A DNA stretch of 31,026 bases from a virus: the IMG/VR virus record IMGVR_UViG_3300017917_001712, positions 1 through 31,026 of that record. The stretch is one strand, 5' to 3'. The position numbers were made by a program, and so were the translations under genes. The notes beneath the pieces are model-generated. The model did not search any database. It was not told the origin of the DNA and worked only from the letters and a program-made list of their open reading frames with translations. This document shows positions 5,801-28,061 of this stretch, in pieces. The first letter of the stretch is position 1. Each line of letters begins with the position of its first letter.

Positions 5801-5826
5801 AGAAAGGGGCTCCGGCCCCTTTCTTT
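5801..5826 (+). terminator. Rho-independent terminator after the fibre block
   Basis: AGAAAGGGGC-TCCG-GCCCCTTTCT forms a perfect 10-bp stem with a 4-nt loop, followed by a T-rich tract (TTCTTT). It lies 23 nt after the fibre stop codon and 10 nt before the late box of the curli operon, so it insulates the two units. Confidence 0.9.
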
Positions 5827-5835
5827 ATGAAAAGT

Positions 5836-5843
5836 CATAAATA
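5836..5843 (+). promoter_or_regulatory. Late-type promoter box (CATAAATA) for the curli operon
   Basis: CATAAATA directly follows the terminator and is the only good late box before the ten-gene operon at 5947-13590. The expected start near 5849 leaves a leader of about 100 nt. I saw no strong sigma70 promoter in the leader. A strong Shine-Dalgarno (AGAGGTGA) lies just before the first GTG. Confidence 0.6.
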
Positions 5844-5946
5844 TATTGTAATTGAGAACACTGTGCAAAAAGCACGCATACACATCAAACACTTCTAATA
5901 TTATACACACACCTCAATAATAAAACACAACAGAAAGAGGTGATCT

Positions 5947-6243
5947 GTGGAAGAAGTTTTTAAACTTATCGCAGAAGTTGGCGCTCCTATCGCAGGATCG
6001 CTAGCAATGGGTTTTTTCATTTTCCTAGTAATCAAGCAGCTACTCGAAGGCGTAGTAGAACAAGTCAAAACTCTGACTATGTTTTGTAAGTCTTTAGAGA
6101 ATCGCGCTACTACTATGAGTAATGAAATGATGAAAATTGATCTGCTAGTAAGCAGTGCATTAGAACTGAAACCAGACATCGAACGCATCTCCAGAGCTAA
6201 CAACTTTGTAGAAGATGGTAAAGTAGACGCAAGGAGAGACTAA
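5947..6243 (+). CDS. Small membrane-anchored coiled-coil protein (holin-like?), paralogue of 6407-6763
   Basis: The 98-residue protein starts at GTG 5947, supported by the AGAGGTGA ribosome binding site. Residues about 8-33 form one hydrophobic segment (APIAGSLAMGFFIFLVIKQL), followed by an amphipathic helix to the end with no catalytic motif. The start MEEVFKLIAEVGAPIAGSLA resembles short phage and Bacillus proteins with one N-terminal helix (YvrJ/BhlA-like), some annotated as holins. The gene two positions downstream has the same architecture. Being first in the curli operon it could be an inner-membrane component, but holin or spanin-like use is equally possible. The function is not recognised. 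Confidence 0.6.
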   Translation: MEEVFKLIAEVGAPIAGSLAMGFFIFLVIKQLLEGVVEQVKTLTMFCKSLENRATTMSNEMMKIDLLVSSALELKPDIERISRANNFVEDGKVDARRD

Positions 6244-6407
6244 TGCTTTATGTAGATTATGTATTTGAAACCGCAGGCAACAATATTTTATTTGACAAAG
6301 AACTCAGCCCTGACTCACTGAAGGTGAAAACAGGTGATAAGTTTGTTGTCGAAGTTACTGAAGATAAAAGAATTATCTTAGTTAAAGTAGTTGAAGAGAG
6401 CAAATAA
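6243..6407 (+). CDS. Small unknown protein (54 aa)
   Basis: The ATG at 6243-6245 overlaps the preceding TAA by one base and has a strong AAGGAGAG Shine-Dalgarno at 6232-6239. The protein begins MLYVDYVFETAGNN, continues through DKELSPDSLKVKTGDKF and ends VKVVEESK. It is acidic, soluble and predicted beta-rich, with no signal peptide or membrane segment. Its stop overlaps the next ATG (TAATG). Tight coupling on both sides supports a real gene. I do not recognise the family. Confidence 0.65.
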   Translation: MLYVDYVFETAGNNILFDKELSPDSLKVKTGDKFVVEVTEDKRIILVKVVEESK

Positions 6408-6763
6408 TGGACGGCATCGCTGATTTAATCAGTCAATTTGGATTCCCAATTGTAGCCATGGTTGGCCTTGGATATTTCATCTATTTTATATGGACATTCA
6501 TTGGCGAGCATATAGATCCTGCATTGCATGATATGCACATTGCACTGATACGAGTAATTGACAAAACTCGTATGCTAGACCAAGATATGATTAGACTACA
6601 ACAGAAAGTTAATGTTGTATTAGAGTATCGAGCAGTTCAAAAGATTATTGAGCAAGCTCAAAAAGAAAAAGAGCTAGAAGCTCTTAAAAAACAAGTAAAC
6701 ACATCACATGTAGAGAAAGTAAAAGCAAAGCACGAGGAGACACATGATGCTAAGAAAATTTAA
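6407..6763 (+). CDS. Small membrane-anchored coiled-coil protein (holin-like?), paralogue of 5947-6243
   Basis: The 118-residue protein has one N-terminal membrane segment (about residues 11-35: FGFPIVAMVGLGYFIYFIWT) and a long charged helix rich in K, E, Q and A from about residue 75. The layout and the N-terminal phrase (ISQFGFPIVAMVGLGYF versus IAEVGAPIAGSLAMGFF) mark it as a divergent copy of the operon's first gene. It overlaps the CsgF start by about 20 nt, which suggests translational coupling. It may anchor or gate the export machinery, or act as a holin-like lysis protein; neither is shown by the sequence. Confidence 0.6.
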   Translation: MDGIADLISQFGFPIVAMVGLGYFIYFIWTFIGEHIDPALHDMHIALIRVIDKTRMLDQDMIRLQQKVNVVLEYRAVQKIIEQAQKEKELEALKKQVNTSHVEKVKAKHEETHDAKKI

Positions 6764-7217
6764 CATGTTTGTTTTTTCAGCTTTACTTGTTTCTGCATCG
6801 TCAGCTGGTGCTTCTGAGATTGTGCATCAATTTAATAGCCCATCCTTTAGTGGTATAGGCTTCACACAGCACGTTCTAAGCATTTACAATCAAGAACAAG
6901 CAGCTAAACAAAAAATCAAAGACGAAAAAGCACAAGCAGAAGCTAAGGCTGAATTAAAACTAATGCAAGATCCAATCTATCGTTTCAAGCAAGCTCTTGA
7001 AAGTAGAATGTATCAAGAACTTGCAAAACAAATTACAGATAACCTTTTTGGTGAAGCTGGTATTAGCGAAGGCGTACTAAACTTCCCAACAGGTGGTACA
7101 GTTGCTTATAAGAAAGATGGCACATTTATTACATTAACTATTACCGATATTAACGGCACAGTAACAGTAATCAAAGTTCCAGTAGCAACAATGATCAATG
7201 CAGCAGGTGGTGGCTAA
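6744..7217 (+). CDS. csgF: CsgF-like curli assembly/transport component
   Basis: The protein has 157 residues, with a signal peptide (hydrophobic FVFSALLVSASSAGA, cleavage expected after Ala23). The mature N-terminus SEIVHQFNSPSFSG matches the F-x-N-P-x-F-G signature with which CsgF binds and extends the CsgG pore. It is followed by the family's DPIYRFKQALESRMYQELAK helix and a C-terminal beta hairpin (TFITLTITDINGTVTVIKVP). A charged insert (KQKIKDEKAQAEAKAELKLM) makes it slightly longer than E. coli CsgF (138 aa). GAGGAG lies 4 nt before the first ATG and 7 nt before a second in-frame ATG at 6747, so either may be used. The csgG homologue follows immediately. Family assignment is strong. 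Confidence 0.88.
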   Translation: MMLRKFNMFVFSALLVSASSAGASEIVHQFNSPSFSGIGFTQHVLSIYNQEQAAKQKIKDEKAQAEAKAELKLMQDPIYRFKQALESRMYQELAKQITDNLFGEAGISEGVLNFPTGGTVAYKKDGTFITLTITDINGTVTVIKVPVATMINAAGGG

Positions 7218-7218
7218 T

Positions 7219-8208
7219 ATGAAAAAACTAACAGTAGCATTATTAGCTAGCGCAAGTCTTGCACTAAGCGGCTGTGCAAGTTATTCACAGATGGATAAGT
7301 TGTTAACTAAAACTCAATTCCAAGATGCAAAGATTGAAGGCACAACACTGGATCGCCCAGAATTTGTATTACCAAAGCCAGCTAACGGCCCAATGGTAGT
7401 TGCTGTATACAGCTTCTTAGATAGAACAGGTCAACGTAAGCCGAGCCCAATGGTTGCACAGTTAAGCAGTGCAGTTACACAAGGATCAGAAACTTATTTG
7501 ATTAAAGCACTTCAAGAAGTAGGTAACGGCGGATGGTTCAAAGTTGTTGAGCGTGTTGGACTAGACAACTTAATGAAAGAGCGTCAGATGATTCGTCAGA
7601 TGCGCGAAATTTACGAAGGTGCAAACGCAAAACCAATGCCCCCAATGTTGTTTGCAGGTGTATTGGTTGAAGGTGGTATCGTGGGTTATGACAGCAATGT
7701 TGTAACAGGCGGTAGCGGTATGCGTATTTTAGGTATTGGTCCGCAAACCCAATATCAAGCAGACATGATTACTGTAAGTCTGCGTGTAGTTAGTGTTACT
7801 ACCGGTGAGGTATTAGTAAGCATTACTACAACAAAAACAGTATATAGCTACATGGATAAGTTAGGTGTACTACGATTTGTAGAAGCTGGTACTAAATCTA
7901 TTGAAGCTGAAATTGGTATGGGTGTAAACGAAAGCGGAAATCGTGCAACTAACATGGCTATTCAAGCCGCAGTAGTTGAAATGATTCGCGAAGGACAGAG
8001 AAAAGGCTTTTGGGACTACGATCCAAAATCTGTAGAAGAAATTAGACTAGCTGAAGAAGCCAAAAAGAAAGCTAAAGAAGAAGCACAAATTCTTAATAAG
8101 CTAAAAAACACACTTAAAGGCAAAGAGAAGAACGACACTGTAGAATCAAAAACAAATATGATTGTTGATGGTTCCGGTGTAACAGTTAAAACAGGAGAGA
8201 GTCAATGA
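7219..8208 (+). CDS. csgG: CsgG-like outer-membrane curli secretion pore (lipoprotein)
   Basis: I start at ATG 7219 (329 aa), because MKKLTVALLASASLALSGC is a perfect lipoprotein signal with lipobox LSGC at Cys19. The upstream in-frame ATG at 7198 would overlap csgF and spoil the signal. The core matches CsgG: VAVYSFLDRTGQRKPSP, AVTQGSE, FKVVERVGLDNLMKERQMIR, VEGGIVGYDSNVVTGGSG, GIGPQTQYQADMITVSLRVV, STKT-type strand TTTKTVYSYM and KGFWDYDP. CsgG forms a nine-subunit outer-membrane channel that exports unfolded curlins with CsgF. By alignment the tyrosine and phenylalanine of the E. coli constriction appear as Ser and Leu. After about residue 270 there is an extra about 60-residue Lys/Glu-rich tail ending in VTVKTGESQ. 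Preceding csgF and following curlin genes are coupled. Confidence 0.93.
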   Translation: MKKLTVALLASASLALSGCASYSQMDKLLTKTQFQDAKIEGTTLDRPEFVLPKPANGPMVVAVYSFLDRTGQRKPSPMVAQLSSAVTQGSETYLIKALQEVGNGGWFKVVERVGLDNLMKERQMIRQMREIYEGANAKPMPPMLFAGVLVEGGIVGYDSNVVTGGSGMRILGIGPQTQYQADMITVSLRVVSVTTGEVLVSITTTKTVYSYMDKLGVLRFVEAGTKSIEAEIGMGVNESGNRATNMAIQAAVVEMIREGQRKGFWDYDPKSVEEIRLAEEAKKKAKEEAQILNKLKNTLKGKEKNDTVESKTNMIVDGSGVTVKTGESQ

Positions 8209-8897
8209 ATAAGACATACAAAGGCTTGTTGTTTGGTCTTGTAATGGCTTTAGGCTCTACCAGTGCTTTTGCTCAGGTAGCAAATACTACTAACAAAGTT
8301 TTCATCGACCAAGTTGGTAATAGTAATACAGTTACCCTAACACAATCAGGTAGTGGCAATAACATCGGCGTAAGCTCAAGTGATTATGCTACTATTACTG
8401 GCGACAGCAACACAGTAACAATGAGCCAGACTGGTGACGGTAATAAAGCAAATTATAAAATAACAGGTAATGGTAACACATATACAAGTGTTGTAACAGG
8501 TAATAACAATGATGTACTAGTAACTTGCGGTACAAACGCAGGTGCATGTACAGGTGTTATTATTGATCAGACAATTACAGGCAGTGGCAACAAACTAGTT
8601 GAAACAATCGCAGGTAGTGCTATCAATAGTAAGACAAAAATTGTTGGTAACTTAAACGACCTACAATACAATTTATTAAGCAGCAATGGTAAACTCGATG
8701 TTGACATTAGTGGTGATAGTAACATTCTACGCCACAATCAAAATGGCGCAGCAGGTGTTAACGGTCACGACCTTAAAGTAGCAATTGTTGGTTCATTGAA
8801 CCAAATCACAACTACACAGGGCGGTACAATTGACACAACTGTAAACATCAAAGTTAACGGCGGCAGTAACGTCATCAACGTAACTACGAGCAACTAA
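8205..8897 (+). CDS. Curlin-repeat amyloid subunit (CsgA/CsgB-like)
   Basis: The protein has 230 residues, with a Sec signal peptide (GLLFGLVMALGSTSAFA, cleavage after Ala23). The mature chain carries curlin repeats of the N-x-V-x-x-x-Q-x-G-x-x-N type: VFIDQVGNSNTVTLTQSGSG and GDSNTVTMSQTGDGN, then weaker GNGNT, GNNND, GSGNK, GDSNI and GSLNQ units at about 20-23-residue spacing. Each unit would form one strand-loop-strand rung of the amyloid cross-beta solenoid. An unusual CGTNAGAC stretch near residues 105-115 could form a disulphide-closed loop. The gene overlaps csgG by 4 nt (ATGA). Curlin identity is strong; whether it acts as major subunit (CsgA) or nucleator (CsgB) cannot be decided. 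Confidence 0.85.
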   Translation: MNKTYKGLLFGLVMALGSTSAFAQVANTTNKVFIDQVGNSNTVTLTQSGSGNNIGVSSSDYATITGDSNTVTMSQTGDGNKANYKITGNGNTYTSVVTGNNNDVLVTCGTNAGACTGVIIDQTITGSGNKLVETIAGSAINSKTKIVGNLNDLQYNLLSSNGKLDVDISGDSNILRHNQNGAAGVNGHDLKVAIVGSLNQITTTQGGTIDTTVNIKVNGGSNVINVTTSN

Positions 8898-9973
8898 TGC
8901 TACGCAAGATTGCTATTGCAATATGCTGTTTTCTAAGTGCAGTGCCAGCTTGGGCTGAGATTGGTAAAATCTCAACTCAGGTTGGCCCTGACTCTTCCAT
9001 TCAGCGTGGGAAACAAGTTATTGCAGGTAAACCTAACACAGGGATAGCATCCAATGATACAGTTAGTACTCGTAAAGGTACTACATTAAACATCAATTTC
9101 AAAGATAACACCAAAGTAAAAATTACAGAAAACAGTCGTCTAGTAATTGACGACTTTGTTTACGATCCTAAACAAAGTGATGCAGGTAGGCTAGCAATGA
9201 AAGTATCTATGGGCACGGTACGTTATGCTAGCGGACAAATTGCCAAAGTAAATCCTCAAAGAATTAACATCAAAACCCCTAGTGCTGCAATCGCAGTGCG
9301 AGGCACAGATTTCCACATGACGGTAGATGAGATGGGCAGAAGTTTAGTTATTCTGGTACCTAGCTGCCGCGACGAAAATGAAATTATTAAAACAGATGAA
9401 CAGCGTTTGTTAAATTGTCAAACAGGTAAGATTATAGTAGAGAATGCAGCAGGTGCAGTCACACTGGAAGAACCATTTAGTGCAACATATGTAGCAAACT
9501 TTGATTCATTACCAAATCCTCCAGTTACACTAAAGCTAACCAGTATTGATCCGAGAATTAGTTTTGATAGTCAGGTAACAAATGATTTGATTATTAGCCC
9601 ACCAGAAGCTGTCCAAGAACAGTTAGCTAAAGCATCAAAAGACGGCGAAAAAGAAGAAAAAGAAGAAGAAACTGTAACAAGAACAGCAAATGCTGATAAC
9701 AATAGAAATGCCGGTAAAGATGATGCAAGAATTACTGCATTAGCCGCCGGCAGCAACGCTAAAGGTCCTTGCTCAGAAAAGATTATTTGCGTTGAAACAA
9801 ATCCGTATGTGACTTTTTATAGAACCACAGACAGCGATCATTACGCAGAGGTACGAGCAAGACTTGGTGCAAACACAAATCTTACCATCATTCATAATGG
9901 CGATGAAGGCAAAGTGGGTTGGGGACCAGCGCCTAACTCGGGTAACATTATAACTATTAGGCAGTCAAAATGA
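8897..9973 (+). CDS. Secreted FecR-domain protein
   Basis: The 358-residue protein has a signal peptide (AIAICCFLSAVPAWA, cleavage after residue 20). Residues about 25-160 match the FecR domain: an early VSTRKGTTLNINFKDNTKVK segment, then SRLVIDDF, then SMGTVRYASGQ and the diagnostic IKTPSAAIAVRGTDF. A Glu/Lys-rich linker (EKEEKEEE, about residue 250) precedes a C-terminal beta-rich domain with two cysteines (CSEKIIC) and a final GWGPAPNSG segment. It lacks the transmembrane helix of classical FecR, so it should be periplasmic or exported. FecR-domain proteins often sit beside CHASE2 cyclases in bacterial genomes, as here two genes downstream, and may act as envelope sensors. It overlaps both neighbours by a few bases, which indicates coupling. 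Confidence 0.8.
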   Translation: MLRKIAIAICCFLSAVPAWAEIGKISTQVGPDSSIQRGKQVIAGKPNTGIASNDTVSTRKGTTLNINFKDNTKVKITENSRLVIDDFVYDPKQSDAGRLAMKVSMGTVRYASGQIAKVNPQRINIKTPSAAIAVRGTDFHMTVDEMGRSLVILVPSCRDENEIIKTDEQRLLNCQTGKIIVENAAGAVTLEEPFSATYVANFDSLPNPPVTLKLTSIDPRISFDSQVTNDLIISPPEAVQEQLAKASKDGEKEEKEEETVTRTANADNNRNAGKDDARITALAAGSNAKGPCSEKIICVETNPYVTFYRTTDSDHYAEVRARLGANTNLTIIHNGDEGKVGWGPAPNSGNIITIRQSK

Positions 9974-11367
9974 GAAAGATACTAGCAGCATTATTATTTT
10001 TCATCAGCATGCCAGCACTAGCACAGCAAGCTAACTTTGGTTTTGAGAGCGGTAACTACTCTAACTGGACTGTTAGTAATGGTAGTACAACTGTTAAGAC
10101 CGGCGGCTGGAGCGATAGTGGCTCGGGCGCACAAGTTACTACAGGTGTAAACAATTATTGTCCTGGTGGTGGTAAATGTTGGACTATTACACCGTATGGT
10201 ACTTATATGTTAAGCATACAAGCAGGTAGTGGCTCTCCTTCGTTTGACAGCTCAATGACAACTCTTGGCTTTACTAGTGCTGAAACTACTTCAATTAAAA
10301 ATACCATTTACCAAAATGGCAACATGTACCCAACTAACGCTTCTTACGCAAGACGTAGTGTAGTACTAGAAGCAGGTAAAACTTATACCTATGCATGGAA
10401 CTATCTTAGCACAGACTATACTCCATACAATGACGGTTCAATGGTTGTGGTAACAGGCCCAGCTGGACCAGTAACAGTTAACGGTCAACAAAAATATGCA
10501 CTGCTAGGTTTTACTAATCCTGGAACTGGTAACTATTCGACTGGCAGCTATGGCTCAACTGGTTGGCAGCAGATAGTTATTACTGTAACTGTTACAGGAA
10601 CTTATGACTTATCGTTTATATCTTTTAACTTAGGTGACACAGCACTAAGCCCAATTCTTTTTATTGATGAAATCATAGGTACTACTCAACTTAACGGTCA
10701 GGATTTTACATCGGTTGCGCCAAACGCAGGTAGTACTGCTCCTCCACCCCCAGCCCCCGGCCCAACAGGCCCAACATATTGCTGTGGTGGCACTGATACA
10801 TCATTTAATGCTAGCACAACAAATACAGCTAAAGTTAATATCTTTAGTTCTAGAACTGTCAAGGATTCCAAAGTAATCATTGAACAAATTGGTTCTGGTA
10901 ATAGTATTACTGTAACACAAAGTGGTACTAGGGAAAATTACTTTAAGTATTACAGTAACGGTAATAATAACACTACTACTGCTACACAAAGTGGCACAAG
11001 TAATGCAGTGACAAACTATATGGACATTACAGTCAATGGTAGCAGTAATAGCTTAACACTAAGCCAAACAGGCACTGGTGGAGCAAAAGGAATCTTTGCT
11101 ACAGTAGCAAATAATAACAATACGATAAATATCCAGCAAAAAGATAATGGTAGCCATTACCTAGATTTATCTTTGAGCGGTGGCAACAAGTCTGTTGCTA
11201 TCATCCAACAAGGCAGCGGAAATCATATGGCCGCAGTCAGCCTTAGCGGGAACCCAACAAGTTTCGAATTGACACAAAGTGGCAGTACACAAAACTTCTA
11301 TTCAATTGCACATTCGTGTGCAACAACTGGAGGATGCGGTACAATCACAGTAACACAAGGACAATAA
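9970..11367 (+). CDS. Fusion of an exported beta-rich adhesin-like domain to curlin repeats
   Basis: The protein has 465 residues, with a signal peptide (ILAALLFFISMPALA, cleavage after Ala18). Residues about 20-250 form an exported beta-sandwich-like domain: NFGFESGNYSNWTVSNG at the start, VLEAGKTYTYAWNYLSTDY in the middle, FIDEI near the end. This order is typical of carbohydrate-binding or extracellular jelly-roll modules. A proline-rich hinge (APPPPAPGPTGP, about 257-269) and a CC pair follow. From about 300 come at least five curlin units at about 23-26-residue spacing (VIIEQIGSGNSITVTQSGT, NNNTTTATQSG, SSNSLTLSQTG, NTINIQQKD, KSVAIIQQGSGN). The curlin half should dock into or nucleate the amyloid while the N-terminal domain is displayed. 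A CATTGGC loop near the end resembles the Cys loop of the other curlin. Domain identity of the N-terminus is inference. Confidence 0.78.
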   Translation: MRKILAALLFFISMPALAQQANFGFESGNYSNWTVSNGSTTVKTGGWSDSGSGAQVTTGVNNYCPGGGKCWTITPYGTYMLSIQAGSGSPSFDSSMTTLGFTSAETTSIKNTIYQNGNMYPTNASYARRSVVLEAGKTYTYAWNYLSTDYTPYNDGSMVVVTGPAGPVTVNGQQKYALLGFTNPGTGNYSTGSYGSTGWQQIVITVTVTGTYDLSFISFNLGDTALSPILFIDEIIGTTQLNGQDFTSVAPNAGSTAPPPPAPGPTGPTYCCGGTDTSFNASTTNTAKVNIFSSRTVKDSKVIIEQIGSGNSITVTQSGTRENYFKYYSNGNNNTTTATQSGTSNAVTNYMDITVNGSSNSLTLSQTGTGGAKGIFATVANNNNTINIQQKDNGSHYLDLSLSGGNKSVAIIQQGSGNHMAAVSLSGNPTSFELTQSGSTQNFYSIAHSCATTGGCGTITVTQGQ

Positions 11368-11368
11368 C

Positions 11369-13402
11369 ATGCTTAAGAAAATTTTACTAAGTCCATGGAC
11401 TGCATTACTCACACTAATTTTAATCGTAGGTATCAGAGCACTAGATCCTAGCTTCGTTGAAAGTGTACGCTTAAGATATTTTGATACACTTATTACCAGC
11501 AAGCCGCCTGTGCAAAATAATGTTTACACTGTGAACATTGATGAAGCAGCACTAGACAAATATGGACAATGGCCTTTTCCACGTGATCAGTATGCAAGCA
11601 TAGTAAAAGATTTATATAGCAGAGGCGCAGGCCTTGTTGTATTCAATGTGTTAATGGCAGAGCCAGATCGCTTCAAAGGCGACAAGGCTATGGAAACTGC
11701 GATGGCACAGTATCCAGTTATACTACCAAATGTGCCATCAGACAAGTCAAAAAATAATCCTCGCGAAACTGGCGCCGCAATCCTAGGCCCAGAGTACTTA
11801 GATACAGTAATTCAATATCCTGGTATCATTGCTAACTTGCCTAACTATGAAGGACTAGCAATCGGTACAGGTACAGTTAATACATTACCAGAGATTGACG
11901 GTGTTAATCGTCGCGTACCATTAGTAGCCAGTGTAGACGGAACATTATATCCAGCACTAAGTTTAGAAGTACTGCGAGTAGTAGCAGGCGATCCTAGCTT
12001 TCAAATTAAGCTAAACGAACTTGGTGTTGAAAAGATGCGTATACCTCAGTTTGGTCCAGTTACTACAGACAGCTTAGGTCGTGTGTGGATTGACTGGAGC
12101 CAAAAGTCACACAGCATCAGTTTAGCAGACTTGCCTAAAGACTTTAGAGGTGCTGTTGTTATTGTAAGCCCAACCGCAGCAGGCATCAGTAACCCAGTGC
12201 CAACAGCACTAGGGCCAATTCATCCACATGAACTACAAGCCGCAGTAGTTGGTACTATGTTTAACGGTGTAAACATTCAACGCCCAGACTATGCAGACTT
12301 TGCAGAAATTGCTGCATTACTTGCATTGGGCTTAATTATAATTTTCTTATCAAGGTGGACATATGTCGGTCTTTCTACAACTGTTGTTGGGATCGCTGCC
12401 AGTGTTGGTGGCTCTTACTGGTTGTTTATTAACCACAACGTGCTCGCAGACGCGACAGCAACTACTATTGGCCTTATTCTTGTTGCCCTGCACGTTTATG
12501 GCGTTAAGTTTGTAAGTGAGTTCTTGCAGAAGCAACAAATTAAAAAGCAGTTTGGCACTTACTTAAGTCCAGACCTAGTAGCACAGCTACAGCGTCAACC
12601 AGAACTGCTAAAACTAGGTGGTACAGAACAAGAGCTGTCAATTATGTTTACTGATGTTCGTGGCTTTACTACAATCTCTGAACACTATGGCAAAGACGTT
12701 CAAGGCTTAACAAGTATTATGAACCGTTATATGACTGCTATGACTAAAGCTATCCTTGAGAACAAGGGTACGCTAGACAAGTATATTGGTGACGCACAGA
12801 TGGCATTCTGGAACGCACCTGTTAATAATCCACAACACGCAAAAGATGCAGTACGTACTGCATTCCAAATGTTAAAAGCACTAAAGGAATTCAATGAAGA
12901 AATTAAGGCAGAAGGTGTACCAGCTTTTGGTATGGGTCTCGGTATCAATACTGACACTGTGGTTGTTGGCAATATGGGCAGCGATCAGCGTTTTGACTAT
13001 ACCTGTCTTGGCGACGGCGTTAATCTTGCTAGTCGCCTCGAAGGTCAATCCAAGCCCTACGGAGTCAAAATCATTATCGGACCAAAAACGGCTGAGTATG
13101 TGCGAGAAGCATACCAAGTCGTTGAGCTCGATTTACTCGCAGTAAAAGGCAAAACAGAACCGGCACAAATTTTCACAGTTTTAGAAGAATTTGATGCTGC
13201 CGATGAAAGAGTACACAAACAATTTTTAACAGCTTATCGCAAAGGTGATTGGGATATCGCATACAGAATAGCTACAGACATGAGACACAGTTGGAAGGGT
13301 GAACTAACTCAATATTACGAAGCAATGCGAGCTCGTATACATGAGTTTAAAGCAAGTCCTCCCAAAAACTGGGATGGCATTTACAGAGCCACATCAAAAT
13401 GA
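11369..13402 (+). CDS. CHASE2-domain membrane adenylate cyclase (class III, Lys/Thr type)
   Basis: The protein has 677 residues: an N-terminal membrane helix (about 12-25), an extracytoplasmic CHASE2 sensor domain (about 30-300, with YTVNIDEAALDKYGQWPFPR), three membrane helices (about 310-385), then a cytoplasmic class III cyclase domain (about 420-610). Catalytic residues are present: metal aspartates Asp429 (MFTDVRGFT) and Asp475 (YIGDAQMAFW), purine-selecting Lys471 and Thr545 (DYTCLGDGVN), and transition-state residues Asn552 and Arg556. The Lys/Thr pair points to ATP and the class IIIb subgroup, some of which respond to bicarbonate. The enzyme should make cAMP in response to an envelope signal. 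AAGGA precedes the ATG. It is the last large gene of the curli operon, paired with the FecR protein. A complete, apparently active CHASE2 cyclase in a phage is unusual. Confidence 0.9.
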   Translation: MLKKILLSPWTALLTLILIVGIRALDPSFVESVRLRYFDTLITSKPPVQNNVYTVNIDEAALDKYGQWPFPRDQYASIVKDLYSRGAGLVVFNVLMAEPDRFKGDKAMETAMAQYPVILPNVPSDKSKNNPRETGAAILGPEYLDTVIQYPGIIANLPNYEGLAIGTGTVNTLPEIDGVNRRVPLVASVDGTLYPALSLEVLRVVAGDPSFQIKLNELGVEKMRIPQFGPVTTDSLGRVWIDWSQKSHSISLADLPKDFRGAVVIVSPTAAGISNPVPTALGPIHPHELQAAVVGTMFNGVNIQRPDYADFAEIAALLALGLIIIFLSRWTYVGLSTTVVGIAASVGGSYWLFINHNVLADATATTIGLILVALHVYGVKFVSEFLQKQQIKKQFGTYLSPDLVAQLQRQPELLKLGGTEQELSIMFTDVRGFTTISEHYGKDVQGLTSIMNRYMTAMTKAILENKGTLDKYIGDAQMAFWNAPVNNPQHAKDAVRTAFQMLKALKEFNEEIKAEGVPAFGMGLGINTDTVVVGNMGSDQRFDYTCLGDGVNLASRLEGQSKPYGVKIIIGPKTAEYVREAYQVVELDLLAVKGKTEPAQIFTVLEEFDAADERVHKQFLTAYRKGDWDIAYRIATDMRHSWKGELTQYYEAMRARIHEFKASPPKNWDGIYRATSK

Positions 13403-13590
13403 TTAAACTAGAAAGTAACAGAGATAGTACACGATTTACTGTATTAGATGATGATAAGGTTATTGTGTTTACTAGCAGTTATACACATGCAATGGAAGTC
13501 TATGAGCGTGCAAAGGCAAATGACTTAGATTTTATAGAAAAAATGTTTGTACCTTTTACGCCTCAGGATCCCACAGCTTCACAGTTATAA
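13399..13590 (+). CDS. Small unknown protein at the end of the curli operon (63 aa)
   Basis: The ATG overlaps the cyclase stop (ATGA). The protein begins MIKLESNRDSTRFTVLDDDK, then has VIVFTSSYTHAMEVYERAKAND and ends DPTASQL. It is predicted to be a small soluble alpha/beta protein. Its 3' end overlaps the convergent minus-strand gene (13556-14182) by 35 nt. Coupling with the cyclase favours a real gene. It could be a regulator of the cyclase, but no family is recognised. Confidence 0.55.
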   Translation: MIKLESNRDSTRFTVLDDDKVIVFTSSYTHAMEVYERAKANDLDFIEKMFVPFTPQDPTASQL

Positions 13591-14187: not shown

Positions 14188-14195
14188 TATTTATT
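14188..14195 (-). promoter_or_regulatory. Late-type promoter box (AATAAATA), leaderless arrangement
   Basis: On the minus strand AATAAATA is followed by GTGCA and then the ATG at 14182. The box overlaps the end of the Nudix gene. Spacing to ATG (5 nt) is identical to that at three other genes in the window. Confidence 0.5.
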
Positions 14196-14616
14196 CTTTG
14201 TGTATTCCAAGAATAGTGTGTAGTTTTTCTGTTCCGCCGTTTTTGTTTAGTGTTAGTCTTGCGCCATTGTGTAAAGGTTGCGGCCAAACACCTATGTTAA
14301 CCCACGCATAACCTGCACTCTCGCCATTTAGCACAGGACTGAATTCTTTTTCTACTACATAAACAAAACTGTAATAATAAAATTTTTGATCTTTGCTTTG
14401 GTAAACATCTATGGGGTTTAGTTTTGCAAGCTCGGGAACAAAACCAATTTCTTCAGTAAGTTCACGTTGAATACACTCATAGACTGTCTCGCCTTTTTCT
14501 ATAAGGCCTCCCCAGAATCCCCAAGTGTTTTTAAATCTCTTATCAGAGTTGCGTAATTGTAGTAAGCAACGACCTGTGTCTTTTGCTAAAAATACTACGC
14601 CGGCGGCTGTTGTCAT
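14191..14616 (-). CDS. Nudix hydrolase
   Basis: The protein has 141 residues. The complete Nudix box G-x5-E-x7-R-E-L-x-E-E-x-G-F lies at residues 37-59 (GGLIEKGETVYECIQRELTE, then EIGF), with the usual upstream strand GVVFLAK and downstream FYYYSFVYVVEKEF. Nudix enzymes hydrolyse nucleoside diphosphates linked to another group (NTPs, ADP-ribose, NAD or mRNA caps); the substrate here cannot be read. The start overlaps the gp15 stop by one base (TAATG), so it is translationally coupled to a tail gene. Phages of the T4 group often carry Nudix enzymes. Confidence 0.88.
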   Translation of the reverse strand: MTTAAGVVFLAKDTGRCLLQLRNSDKRFKNTWGFWGGLIEKGETVYECIQRELTEEIGFVPELAKLNPIDVYQSKDQKFYYYSFVYVVEKEFSPVLNGESAGYAWVNIGVWPQPLHNGARLTLNKNGGTEKLHTILGIHKE

Positions 14617-17039: not shown

Positions 17040-18116
17040 CTATTTATCTAAAATCTTGCCACAGTGATGTACGCAAGTTGAACAGTGTTTTCTATTATCT
17101 CCTAGCTGCAATTTGCCATCAAACGCATCAGTTAGTGTTTTAATGTAAAAGCTATGCTGTAGTACCTTGTGTATTGACTTATTCTGTGTTACTTTGAGCT
17201 CATCTTTAATAGGATCAATTATCCTACTGAGCTGTGGTTCTCGCATCATATACTTTGACGCAATATAACAGCATGGATACACAGCACCGTCAGAATCAAT
17301 ATAAACTTCGTACTTGTCTTTATTGGGCCCGTAACCGGAGACCTGACAGTTGAACTCTACTTCCATACTAGACCAGTCAATGCCATCAAATTGTTTAAAC
17401 TCGTGGTTTTCAACTTTAACAAAGCTATCGTGCTGATCGTGCAACTCTGTTTCGTAGTGCGGCTTTAAAGTATATTCTAAGTTACCATCTCTGTTATAAA
17501 CTGGTACAGTTCTTGTTTTGCCATCCTGTAATTCAAAAAATCCATATGGTTCTTTGATATCAAAGTATACATTATACTTTTTGCAAATAGCATCAATCAC
17601 AGGAATATCATCTTTGTTGTGTGCAAATTTTAAGAATTCCCATCGTGCAGGACCACCACCTTCAAAGTAGGCTAACATGTTAGCCCAAACTTTACTCCAC
17701 TTAACATTTTTTCTATAGATATGATTAGTGTGTTCTAAACCGTCTACACTCCACACTACAAAACTGTTAGTACCTTTAAACAGTTGGCTAATTTTGGCCC
17801 AGTAATCCGGCTGCTTTGCGCCTCCGTTTGTTCGCACTTCGATCTGTGTATTTGGGTTACATTTAAGCAGAAACTCTAATATAACCAACAAGTCTTTGGC
17901 TGCACTAGGATCGCCCTTTGTGCCGCAAAAATTCCAGCGTCTAATCCCTTTACAAAAATCTTCACCTAGCATCAAAAAGTAATCTAAGCCAAGTTCTTGA
18001 TTTTTGATATAGGGCATAACTGGCCCACCATTTAATGATCTAGGACAAACTGGACATTCAGCGTTGCAGCGATCGGTTAGCTCAACGTGTACTTCGTTTA
18101 TAGGATTTGAATACAT
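17040..18116 (-). CDS. Radical SAM / SPASM-type protein
   Basis: The protein has 358 residues. The radical-SAM cluster motif C-x3-C-x2-C is at Cys17, Cys21 and Cys24 (DRCNAECPVC), followed by the usual FCGTKGDP strand and EVRTNGG. The C-terminus has a SPASM-like set of cysteines (CQVSG, YPCCYIA, CSTCVHHCG) that could hold an extra Fe-S cluster. Such enzymes modify peptides or small molecules by radical chemistry. It is divergent from the gene at 18184 and precedes gp14 on the minus strand. The start follows a GATAAGTA box at the 5-nt leaderless spacing and no Shine-Dalgarno is visible. Substrate unknown. Confidence 0.85.
   Translation of the reverse strand: MYSNPINEVHVELTDRCNAECPVCPRSLNGGPVMPYIKNQELGLDYFLMLGEDFCKGIRRWNFCGTKGDPSAAKDLLVILEFLLKCNPNTQIEVRTNGGAKQPDYWAKISQLFKGTNSFVVWSVDGLEHTNHIYRKNVKWSKVWANMLAYFEGGGPARWEFLKFAHNKDDIPVIDAICKKYNVYFDIKEPYGFFELQDGKTRTVPVYNRDGNLEYTLKPHYETELHDQHDSFVKVENHEFKQFDGIDWSSMEVEFNCQVSGYGPNKDKYEVYIDSDGAVYPCCYIASKYMMREPQLSRIIDPIKDELKVTQNKSIHKVLQHSFYIKTLTDAFDGKLQLGDNRKHCSTCVHHCGKILDK
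17041..17048 (-). promoter_or_regulatory. T4-type late promoter box (GATAAATA), leaderless arrangement for gp14
   Basis: The minus strand reads GATAAATA-GTGTT-ATG. The box overlaps the last codons and stop of the upstream radical SAM gene. The predicted start falls on the ATG itself. Confidence 0.7.
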
Positions 18117-28053: not shown

Positions 28054-28061
28054 TATAAATA
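28054..28061 (+). promoter_or_regulatory. Perfect T4 late promoter box (TATAAATA) for the sheath gene
   Basis: This is the only box identical to the T4 consensus. The expected start near 28067 gives a short leader with AGGGAGA (about 28081-28087) before ATG 28094. Confidence 0.8.

Follow-up and report, generated by a model that had tools for sequence, protein, structure and literature searches.

Curli genes have been reported in several groups of phages. The genes csgF and csgG were found in pelagimyophages (Zaragoza-Solas et al. 2020, PMC7029224), the same two genes were described in the methylophage Melnitz (Buchholz et al. 2022, PMC9004378), and Wittmers et al. 2022 (PMC9599517) showed that pelagiphages of both podo- and myo-type have the complete set, which also includes CsgA/B, FecR and an adenylate cyclase. 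Phage curli are widespread, with at least 592 CsgG relatives in IMG/VR, and their purpose has been debated since the first report. Here we analysed a csg cassette in a 31,026-nt stretch of viral DNA, positions 1 to 31,026 of the IMG/VR record IMGVR_UViG_3300017917_001712 (hereafter the window). An earlier note on this DNA, made from the sequence alone, had described a curli secretion and signalling operon within a T4-like phage and doubted that the cassette was new. The description stands, as the Pfam cut-offs are passed and the neighbours are T4-type structural genes; the doubt was justified by the three reports cited above, and the cassette is not new in kind, since pelagiphages and methylophages already have it. 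The set csgF-csgG-curlin-fecR-cyclase is near-invariant and under purifying selection, and a pair of small membrane proteins, tmA and tmB, goes with it.

To collect relatives, IMG/VR was scanned with profiles of CsgG, FecR and tmA, which yielded 170 distinct phage loci. csgF accompanied csgG in every distinct phage locus that has csgG (163/163), and among the csgG loci with enough DNA, fecR was present in 130/130 and the cyclase in 78/79. A strict curlin motif was found next to csgG in 125 of 149 loci; 20 of the 24 loci failing it were inspected, and all of these have a secreted ORF (open reading frame) with divergent curlin-like repeats. The ratio of non-synonymous to synonymous substitution (dN/dS) against relatives was about 0.01-0.21 over all core genes; against eight relatives it was 0.05-0.12 for the curlins (0.09-0.12 for curlin-1), while csgF, csgG, fecR and the cyclase stayed under about 0.15. 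The synonymous distances to the relative L003 were uneven (dS 0.23 for csgF and the cyclase, 1.16 for fecR and 1.66 for gp15), a sign that phages have exchanged pieces of the cassette by recombination.

The cassette comprises ten plus-strand ORFs at positions 5947-13590, abutting or overlapping in the order tmA, AbrB-like, tmB, csgF, csgG, curlin-1, fecR, curlin-2, CHASE2-cyclase and a 63-aa ORF (Table 1). Tail-fibre genes lie on one side and gp15/gp14 on the other; the ten genes and the flanks are as given in the earlier note. Judged against the curated gathering score of Pfam, each of the core proteins (CsgF, CsgG, both curlins, FecR, CHASE2 and cyclase) scored above it, and the membership of CsgF and CsgG in their families (PF10614 and PF03783) was thereby confirmed. 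Existing phage families in PHROGs cover tmA/tmB, CsgF, CsgG, FecR and the cyclase. The phage is T4-like, with gp15 (PF16724, E=2.1e-29), a gp14-like virion protein, a gp13-like Ad2 protein and a gp18-like tail sheath. A megablast search of the window against GenBank phages gave 0 matches, hence it has no close deposited relative there. The same cassette was present on 11 related IMG/VR contigs, those long enough keeping the fibre and x243/nudix/gp15/gp14 flanks. A chimeric assembly was ruled out, because these independent contigs share both the cassette and its flanks.

Table 1. Features of the csg cassette and its upstream signals in the window
Feature	Position	Strand	Evidence and remarks
Stem-loop then TTTCTTT	5801..5824	+	probable terminator of upstream fibre gene; 10-bp stem, 6 GC pairs
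Late-promoter-like box CATAAATA	5836..5843	+	1 mismatch vs T4 late box TATAAATA
tmA	5947..6243	+	98 aa; phrog_18771 E=4.6e-23
AbrB/MazE-like	6243..6407	+	54 aa; PF04014 E=0.0011, below cut-off; variable accessory
tmB, paralogue of tmA	6407..6763	+	118 aa; phrog_18771 E=2.6e-23
CsgF	6744..7217	+	PF10614 E=9.7e-18, 65 bits (cut-off 25.8), profile 7-132/132
CsgG outer-membrane lipoprotein pore	7219..8208	+	PF03783 E=2.3e-47, 161 bits
curlin-1, secreted curlin-repeat protein	8205..8897	+	PF07012 E=1.2e-5, 25.5 bits (cut-off 20.7)
FecR-domain periplasmic protein	8897..9973	+	PF04773 E=5.9e-12
curlin-2	9970..11367	+	PF07012 E=6.7e-8, 32.8 bits
CHASE2 sensor + class III nucleotide cyclase	11369..13402	+	PF05226 E=2.1e-37; PF00211 (Guanylate_cyc) E=8.8e-21
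63-aa ORF	13399..13590	+	variable accessory; no Pfam family

The phage CsgF carries a signal peptide, after which the mature protein begins with the conserved motif HxFxSPxFSGxG. By a strict pattern this motif was present in 178 of the 196 distinct CsgFs, and the seven exceptions inspected were close variants. In the E. coli CsgG-CsgF structures the N-terminal motif of CsgF sits in the CsgG barrel. The CsgF profile found no CsgF chain in PDB; CsgG aligned with the E. coli CsgG structures in PDB over most of its length (E=1.7e-67). The start of csgG is most likely at position 7219, revised from 7198, as the revised start yields a predicted lipoprotein signal (MKKLTVALLASASLALSGC) with the lipobox LSGC. 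The Tyr/Asn/Phe residues of the E. coli constriction loop (TGQFKPYPASNF) are not kept. Ordinary alphaproteobacterial CsgGs also diverge from E. coli at this loop, and the divergence is thus no evidence for a new phage function. Adjacency of csgF and csgG is not obligatory, since an insertion of about 2 kb separates them in the loci L161 and L163, and also in L162 and L169.

Both curlins have signal peptides and pass the PF07012 cut-off. The earlier note was right in naming two curlin-repeat proteins and overlooked the adhesin-type head of the second. Curlin-2 consists of a signal peptide, a CBM-like (carbohydrate-binding module) beta-sandwich at residues ~20-245, a linker and a curlin-repeat stalk at ~299-464, and its AlphaFold2 model (mean pLDDT 72.9) places a beta-sandwich and a beta-solenoid over these two regions. 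The head matched the CBM61 structure 2xom (Foldseek probability 1.00, TMt 0.63) and a porphyran-binding CBM (Z 8.9, root-mean-square deviation 3.1, 125 aligned), and it also resembles other carbohydrate-binding modules and MAM domains. A CBM fold is therefore suggested for the modelled head, a Z near 8 not in itself implying sugar binding. The CsgB-like NCBIfam match of curlin-2 reached 23 of 165 bits, far under the cut-off. In a set of 81 proteins, made up of curlin-2 and surface proteins near it, the recognised heads included F5/8C (24), NF038132 (12), PA14 (9) and GLEYA (4), and the curlin-2 of Pelagibacter phage HTVC008M bears a PA14 head on its curlin stalk. Judging from this domain make-up, curlin-2 is a predicted modular adhesin, in which a curlin stalk carries swapped heads of carbohydrate-binding type; no earlier description of such head swapping was found in the open-access literature. 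In some relatives large secreted proteins stand between fecR and the cyclase (L165 11142-15479, L160 11141-14512, L025 14495-17374 and L076 14180-16543). Their C-termini look autotransporter/YadA-like by eye, with one Pfam Autotransporter match, and the head of the L165 protein is similar in sequence to that of the window's curlin-2.

For FecR, a fold search with the predicted model gave the cell-surface-signalling domain of PupR as the best match (Foldseek E 5.3e-4) and was otherwise unremarkable. In the cyclase, the metal aspartates (D429 and D475), the substrate lysine (K471) and the arginine R556 were invariant in all aligned sequences (143/143). Position 545 is T, D or S and position 552 is N or S across relatives; Lys471 and Thr545 suggest ATP as the predicted substrate. 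FecR also adjoins a CHASE2 cyclase where curli genes are lacking, in the bacterial loci L177, L178, L180 and L274, which supports the view of FecR and the cyclase as a sensor unit. FecR stood beside ordinary alphaproteobacterial CHASE2 cyclases in 3/19 cases only. We concluded that the pairing is real and not general. No paper linking CHASE2 with phage curlin was found in the open-access literature.

The earlier note had listed small proteins in the cassette. They are present, and the conserved paralogous membrane pair among them had been overlooked. tmA is paralogous to tmB (hhalign 98.2%, E 5e-14), and each has one hydrophobic segment close to the N-terminus and with basic residues that favour a cytoplasmic C-terminus; in the tmA alignment the single transmembrane (TM) helix is followed by a conserved C-terminal helical part, and the tmB segment fell under the hydrophobicity threshold used in 91/160. 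Both genes were found in 55/59 distinct csgG loci with enough flank. In the other four the cyclase lies far downstream or was not reached, and the pair may lie past the fetched DNA. In 77 of the loci where tmA was found it is upstream and co-oriented; in 49 it is downstream and points the opposite way. In loci anchored on tmA, a biased sample as it holds the best 80 of 585 tmA relatives, csgF was present in 72/72, csgG in 61/61 and the cyclase in 40/40; the csgG-anchored 55/59 is the independent figure. Among 50,697 GenBank phages, tmA occurred only in HTVC008M and Melnitz strains, which are also the isolates carrying a full-length cyclase and, bar one 1.5-kb Salmonella-phage record, CsgG. tmA gave no match in plasmids, nor in 398 Caulobacterales genomes, the latter a weak negative from a search run without a positive control. 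One or two "histidine kinases" were placed before csgF by Wittmers et al. 2022 (PMC9599517); judging from position, tmA/tmB are apparently these genes, and no histidine-kinase domain was detected in them by Pfam at E up to 1, in the window or the isolates. We concluded that tmA/tmB are specific markers of phage curli and likely working parts of it. Of the two accessory ORFs, the AbrB/MazE-like one is absent from the relative L005, and the 63-aa ORF, 41-86% identical in relatives, was not detected in L004/L005.

Upstream of tmA, the stem-loop at 5801-5824 probably ends the preceding fibre gene as a terminator; the stem is symmetric and was listed on the minus strand, and its T-rich tail is read on the plus strand. 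The late box pointed out in the earlier note is unremarkable by itself (shuffle p 0.40), therefore only its recurrence in relatives counts, and 11/11 relatives examined have NATAAATA in the 200 nt that precede tmA. In the same window the tail-sheath gene has TATAAATA at 28054, 40 nt ahead of its start. Fewer sigma-70 promoters were predicted within the cassette than in shuffled sequence. The cassette is probably transcribed late.

We consider it fairly probable that, late in infection, the phage has the infected cell export adhesin-bearing curli-type fibres. CsgG and CsgF would form the outer-membrane secretion pore, through which the two curlin-repeat proteins, exported by Sec, would pass to the surface of the infected cell and build fibres of curli type there. 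The curlin-2 head would give the fibre its adhesive specificity and be swapped among phages. FecR in the periplasm and the CHASE2-cyclase in the inner membrane would act as an envelope sensor producing cyclic AMP (cAMP), if signalling runs in this direction, with the tmA/tmB pair as a dedicated inner-membrane component. The benefit may be that neighbouring host cells, virions or debris are held close at lysis, or that the infected cell is shielded from competing phages. Several points weigh against such fibres. CsgE (PF10627) was absent, as the earlier note had said of the window, from all of the 17 records searched (16 phage records, including contigs up to 372 kb, and the Caulobacterales record G001). 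The E. coli positive control was detected in this search, and the 31-kb window alone would be too short to decide; CsgC and CsgD were covered solely by the Pfam scan of the window genes, with no wider search. CsgE is a periplasmic factor of Gammaproteobacteria and is not universal, and its absence leaves gating and substrate delivery unexplained. Lysis would follow soon after late expression, leaving little time for fibre growth, and the curlin-2 head, with a Z near 8, may be just a common beta-sandwich. No clumping of Melnitz-infected OM43 cells was seen in cytograms or by transmission electron microscopy (Buchholz et al., PMC9004378).

Other explanations have been proposed. Buchholz et al. 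2022 argued, from AlphaFold models and gene neighbourhood, that the phage CsgG, with or without CsgF, is a gated secretin/pinholin-like pore that times lysis; the small TM proteins would perhaps be holin-like. The probably late expression of the cassette fits this proposal, as does a match of tmB, though not tmA, to a PHROG holin family (phrog_4898), which is weak and covers the first 20 residues only (E 0.0022). The deposited Melnitz record itself contradicts the premise that curlins are lacking: two curlin-repeat proteins are annotated there, and each exceeds the Pfam cut-off. Furthermore, in the collected loci csgG always came with csgF, a curlin, fecR and the cyclase were almost as regular, the curlins are under purifying selection, and HTVC008M has two annotated endolysins (NC_020484.1 141029-143998) far from its curli cluster. 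We regard a pore for lysis alone as quite improbable. Among the options in the earlier note, re-use of the CsgG pore for lysis alone is disfavoured, since curlin substrates occur alongside it and are under selection. CsgG is inserted into the outer membrane, so that inner-membrane depolarisation would be left unexplained. The constant CsgF, the curlins and the adhesin-type heads fit the export of adhesive fibres better.

Least probable of all, in our judgement, is an uptake or envelope-modification reading, in which the pore admits nutrients such as iron or cobalamin while FecR and the cyclase report on it and the curlins are minor. Uptake was proposed by Zaragoza-Solas et al. (PMC7029224) and Wittmers et al. 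(PMC9599517), and the FecR family is historically linked to ferric-citrate signalling; yet the two selected curlin proteins and the adhesin-type heads are left unexplained, and as FecR also lies beside CHASE2 cyclases in loci without curli, FecR here need not mean iron. A narrower form of the fibre-export explanation is superinfection exclusion or receptor masking, in which the coat of fibres and curlin-2 heads would serve chiefly to keep other phages off the infected cell. It shares the same anatomy, and a YadA/autotransporter-like surface protein, one with a similar head, occupies the same slot in some relatives, but late expression would protect late only, and we think it unlikely that exclusion is the main use. 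The evidence narrows the question of purpose: curlin substrates are nearly always present and under selection, one is predicted to be a modular adhesin, and the small membrane pair tmA/tmB are likely working parts. Guesses are turned into tests feasible on the cultured phages HTVC008M and Melnitz. If it is true that such fibres tether cells or virions, they would be a viral route to extracellular amyloid in dilute water.

The cassette was also seen on jumbo-size T4-like contigs (250-372 kb, with gp23, PF07068), namely L102, L118, L151, L170, L070, L145, L120, L090 and L233; no paper linking jumbo phages and curli was found in the open-access literature. Five contigs from bacterial metagenome-assembled genomes of Rhodobacteraceae, Flavobacteriaceae and Pirellulales (L171, L173, L174, L175 and L176) carry phage-type curli cassette genes, with tmA/tmB on 4/5, and are probably misbinned phage DNA. 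According to Wittmers et al. (PMC9599517), FecR and the cyclase are not within bacterial T8SS (type VIII secretion system) operons. We found csgF-csgG-curlin-fecR-CHASE2 cyclase operons in two Caulobacterales (L172/G001 and L265/G395, the latter at G395:C5:640000-658000), on a 32-kb contig with two curlins and a 705-kb contig with one, respectively, both with ordinary chromosomal flanks. With other alphaproteobacterial CHASE2 cyclases as the root, the cyclase tree joins the phages and the two Caulobacterales in one clade (0.999), in which the bacteria nest beside the phage locus L153 (1.0); the CsgG tree has the same nesting (0.976), with a weak deepest node (0.441). As these are FastTree local supports from limited sampling, the direction of transfer is only a lead; in the literature the genes are held to have passed from Alphaproteobacteria to phages. 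It is possible, and we put it forward tentatively, that phage curli are a distinct type VIII lineage, in which tmA/tmB and the FecR/CHASE2-cyclase drive the export of fibres with exchangeable sugar-binding heads, each phage setting what the infected cell sticks to, and that some Caulobacterales took the core operon from phages.

Near the cassette, the NUDIX hydrolase at 14191-14616 is unusually well conserved, being 89-96% identical among relatives (dN/dS 0.02-0.08), the adjacent gp15 being ~76%, and a radical SAM protein with a weak SPASM match (17040-18116) adjoins gp14.

Compared with the known systems, the phage cassette has the CsgG pore, CsgF and curlin repeats in common with E. coli curli (csgBAC/csgDEFG); it adds FecR, the CHASE2-cyclase, tmA/tmB and a headed curlin, and has no CsgE in the records searched. 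The Caulobacterales operons differ from it in being chromosomal, with the curlins before fecR and no tmA/tmB found alongside. The order CsgF-CsgG-CsgA/B-FecR-CsgA/B-AC (adenylate cyclase) of the T8SS module of Wittmers et al., from HTVC023P-type pelagiphages and pelagimyophages, is that of the window; their module has histidine kinase(s) ahead of csgF, whereas the window has the 98- and 118-aa single-TM paralogues without a kinase domain. Methylophilales phage Melnitz (MZ577097.1) has the same order and components at ~27-50% protein identity, but its genomic position differs and its curlin-2 is without a separate head domain. Pelagibacter phage HTVC008M (NC_020484.1 6900-13807), also T4-like, has the order tmA-tmB-csgF-csgG-curlin-fecR-curlin-cyclase as in the window, at ~28-47% protein identity; its cluster sits between ssDNA-binding-protein (single-stranded DNA)/oxygenase and tape-measure/baseplate genes, whereas the window's sits between the fibres and gp15, and its curlin-2 head is PA14 where that of the window is CBM-like.

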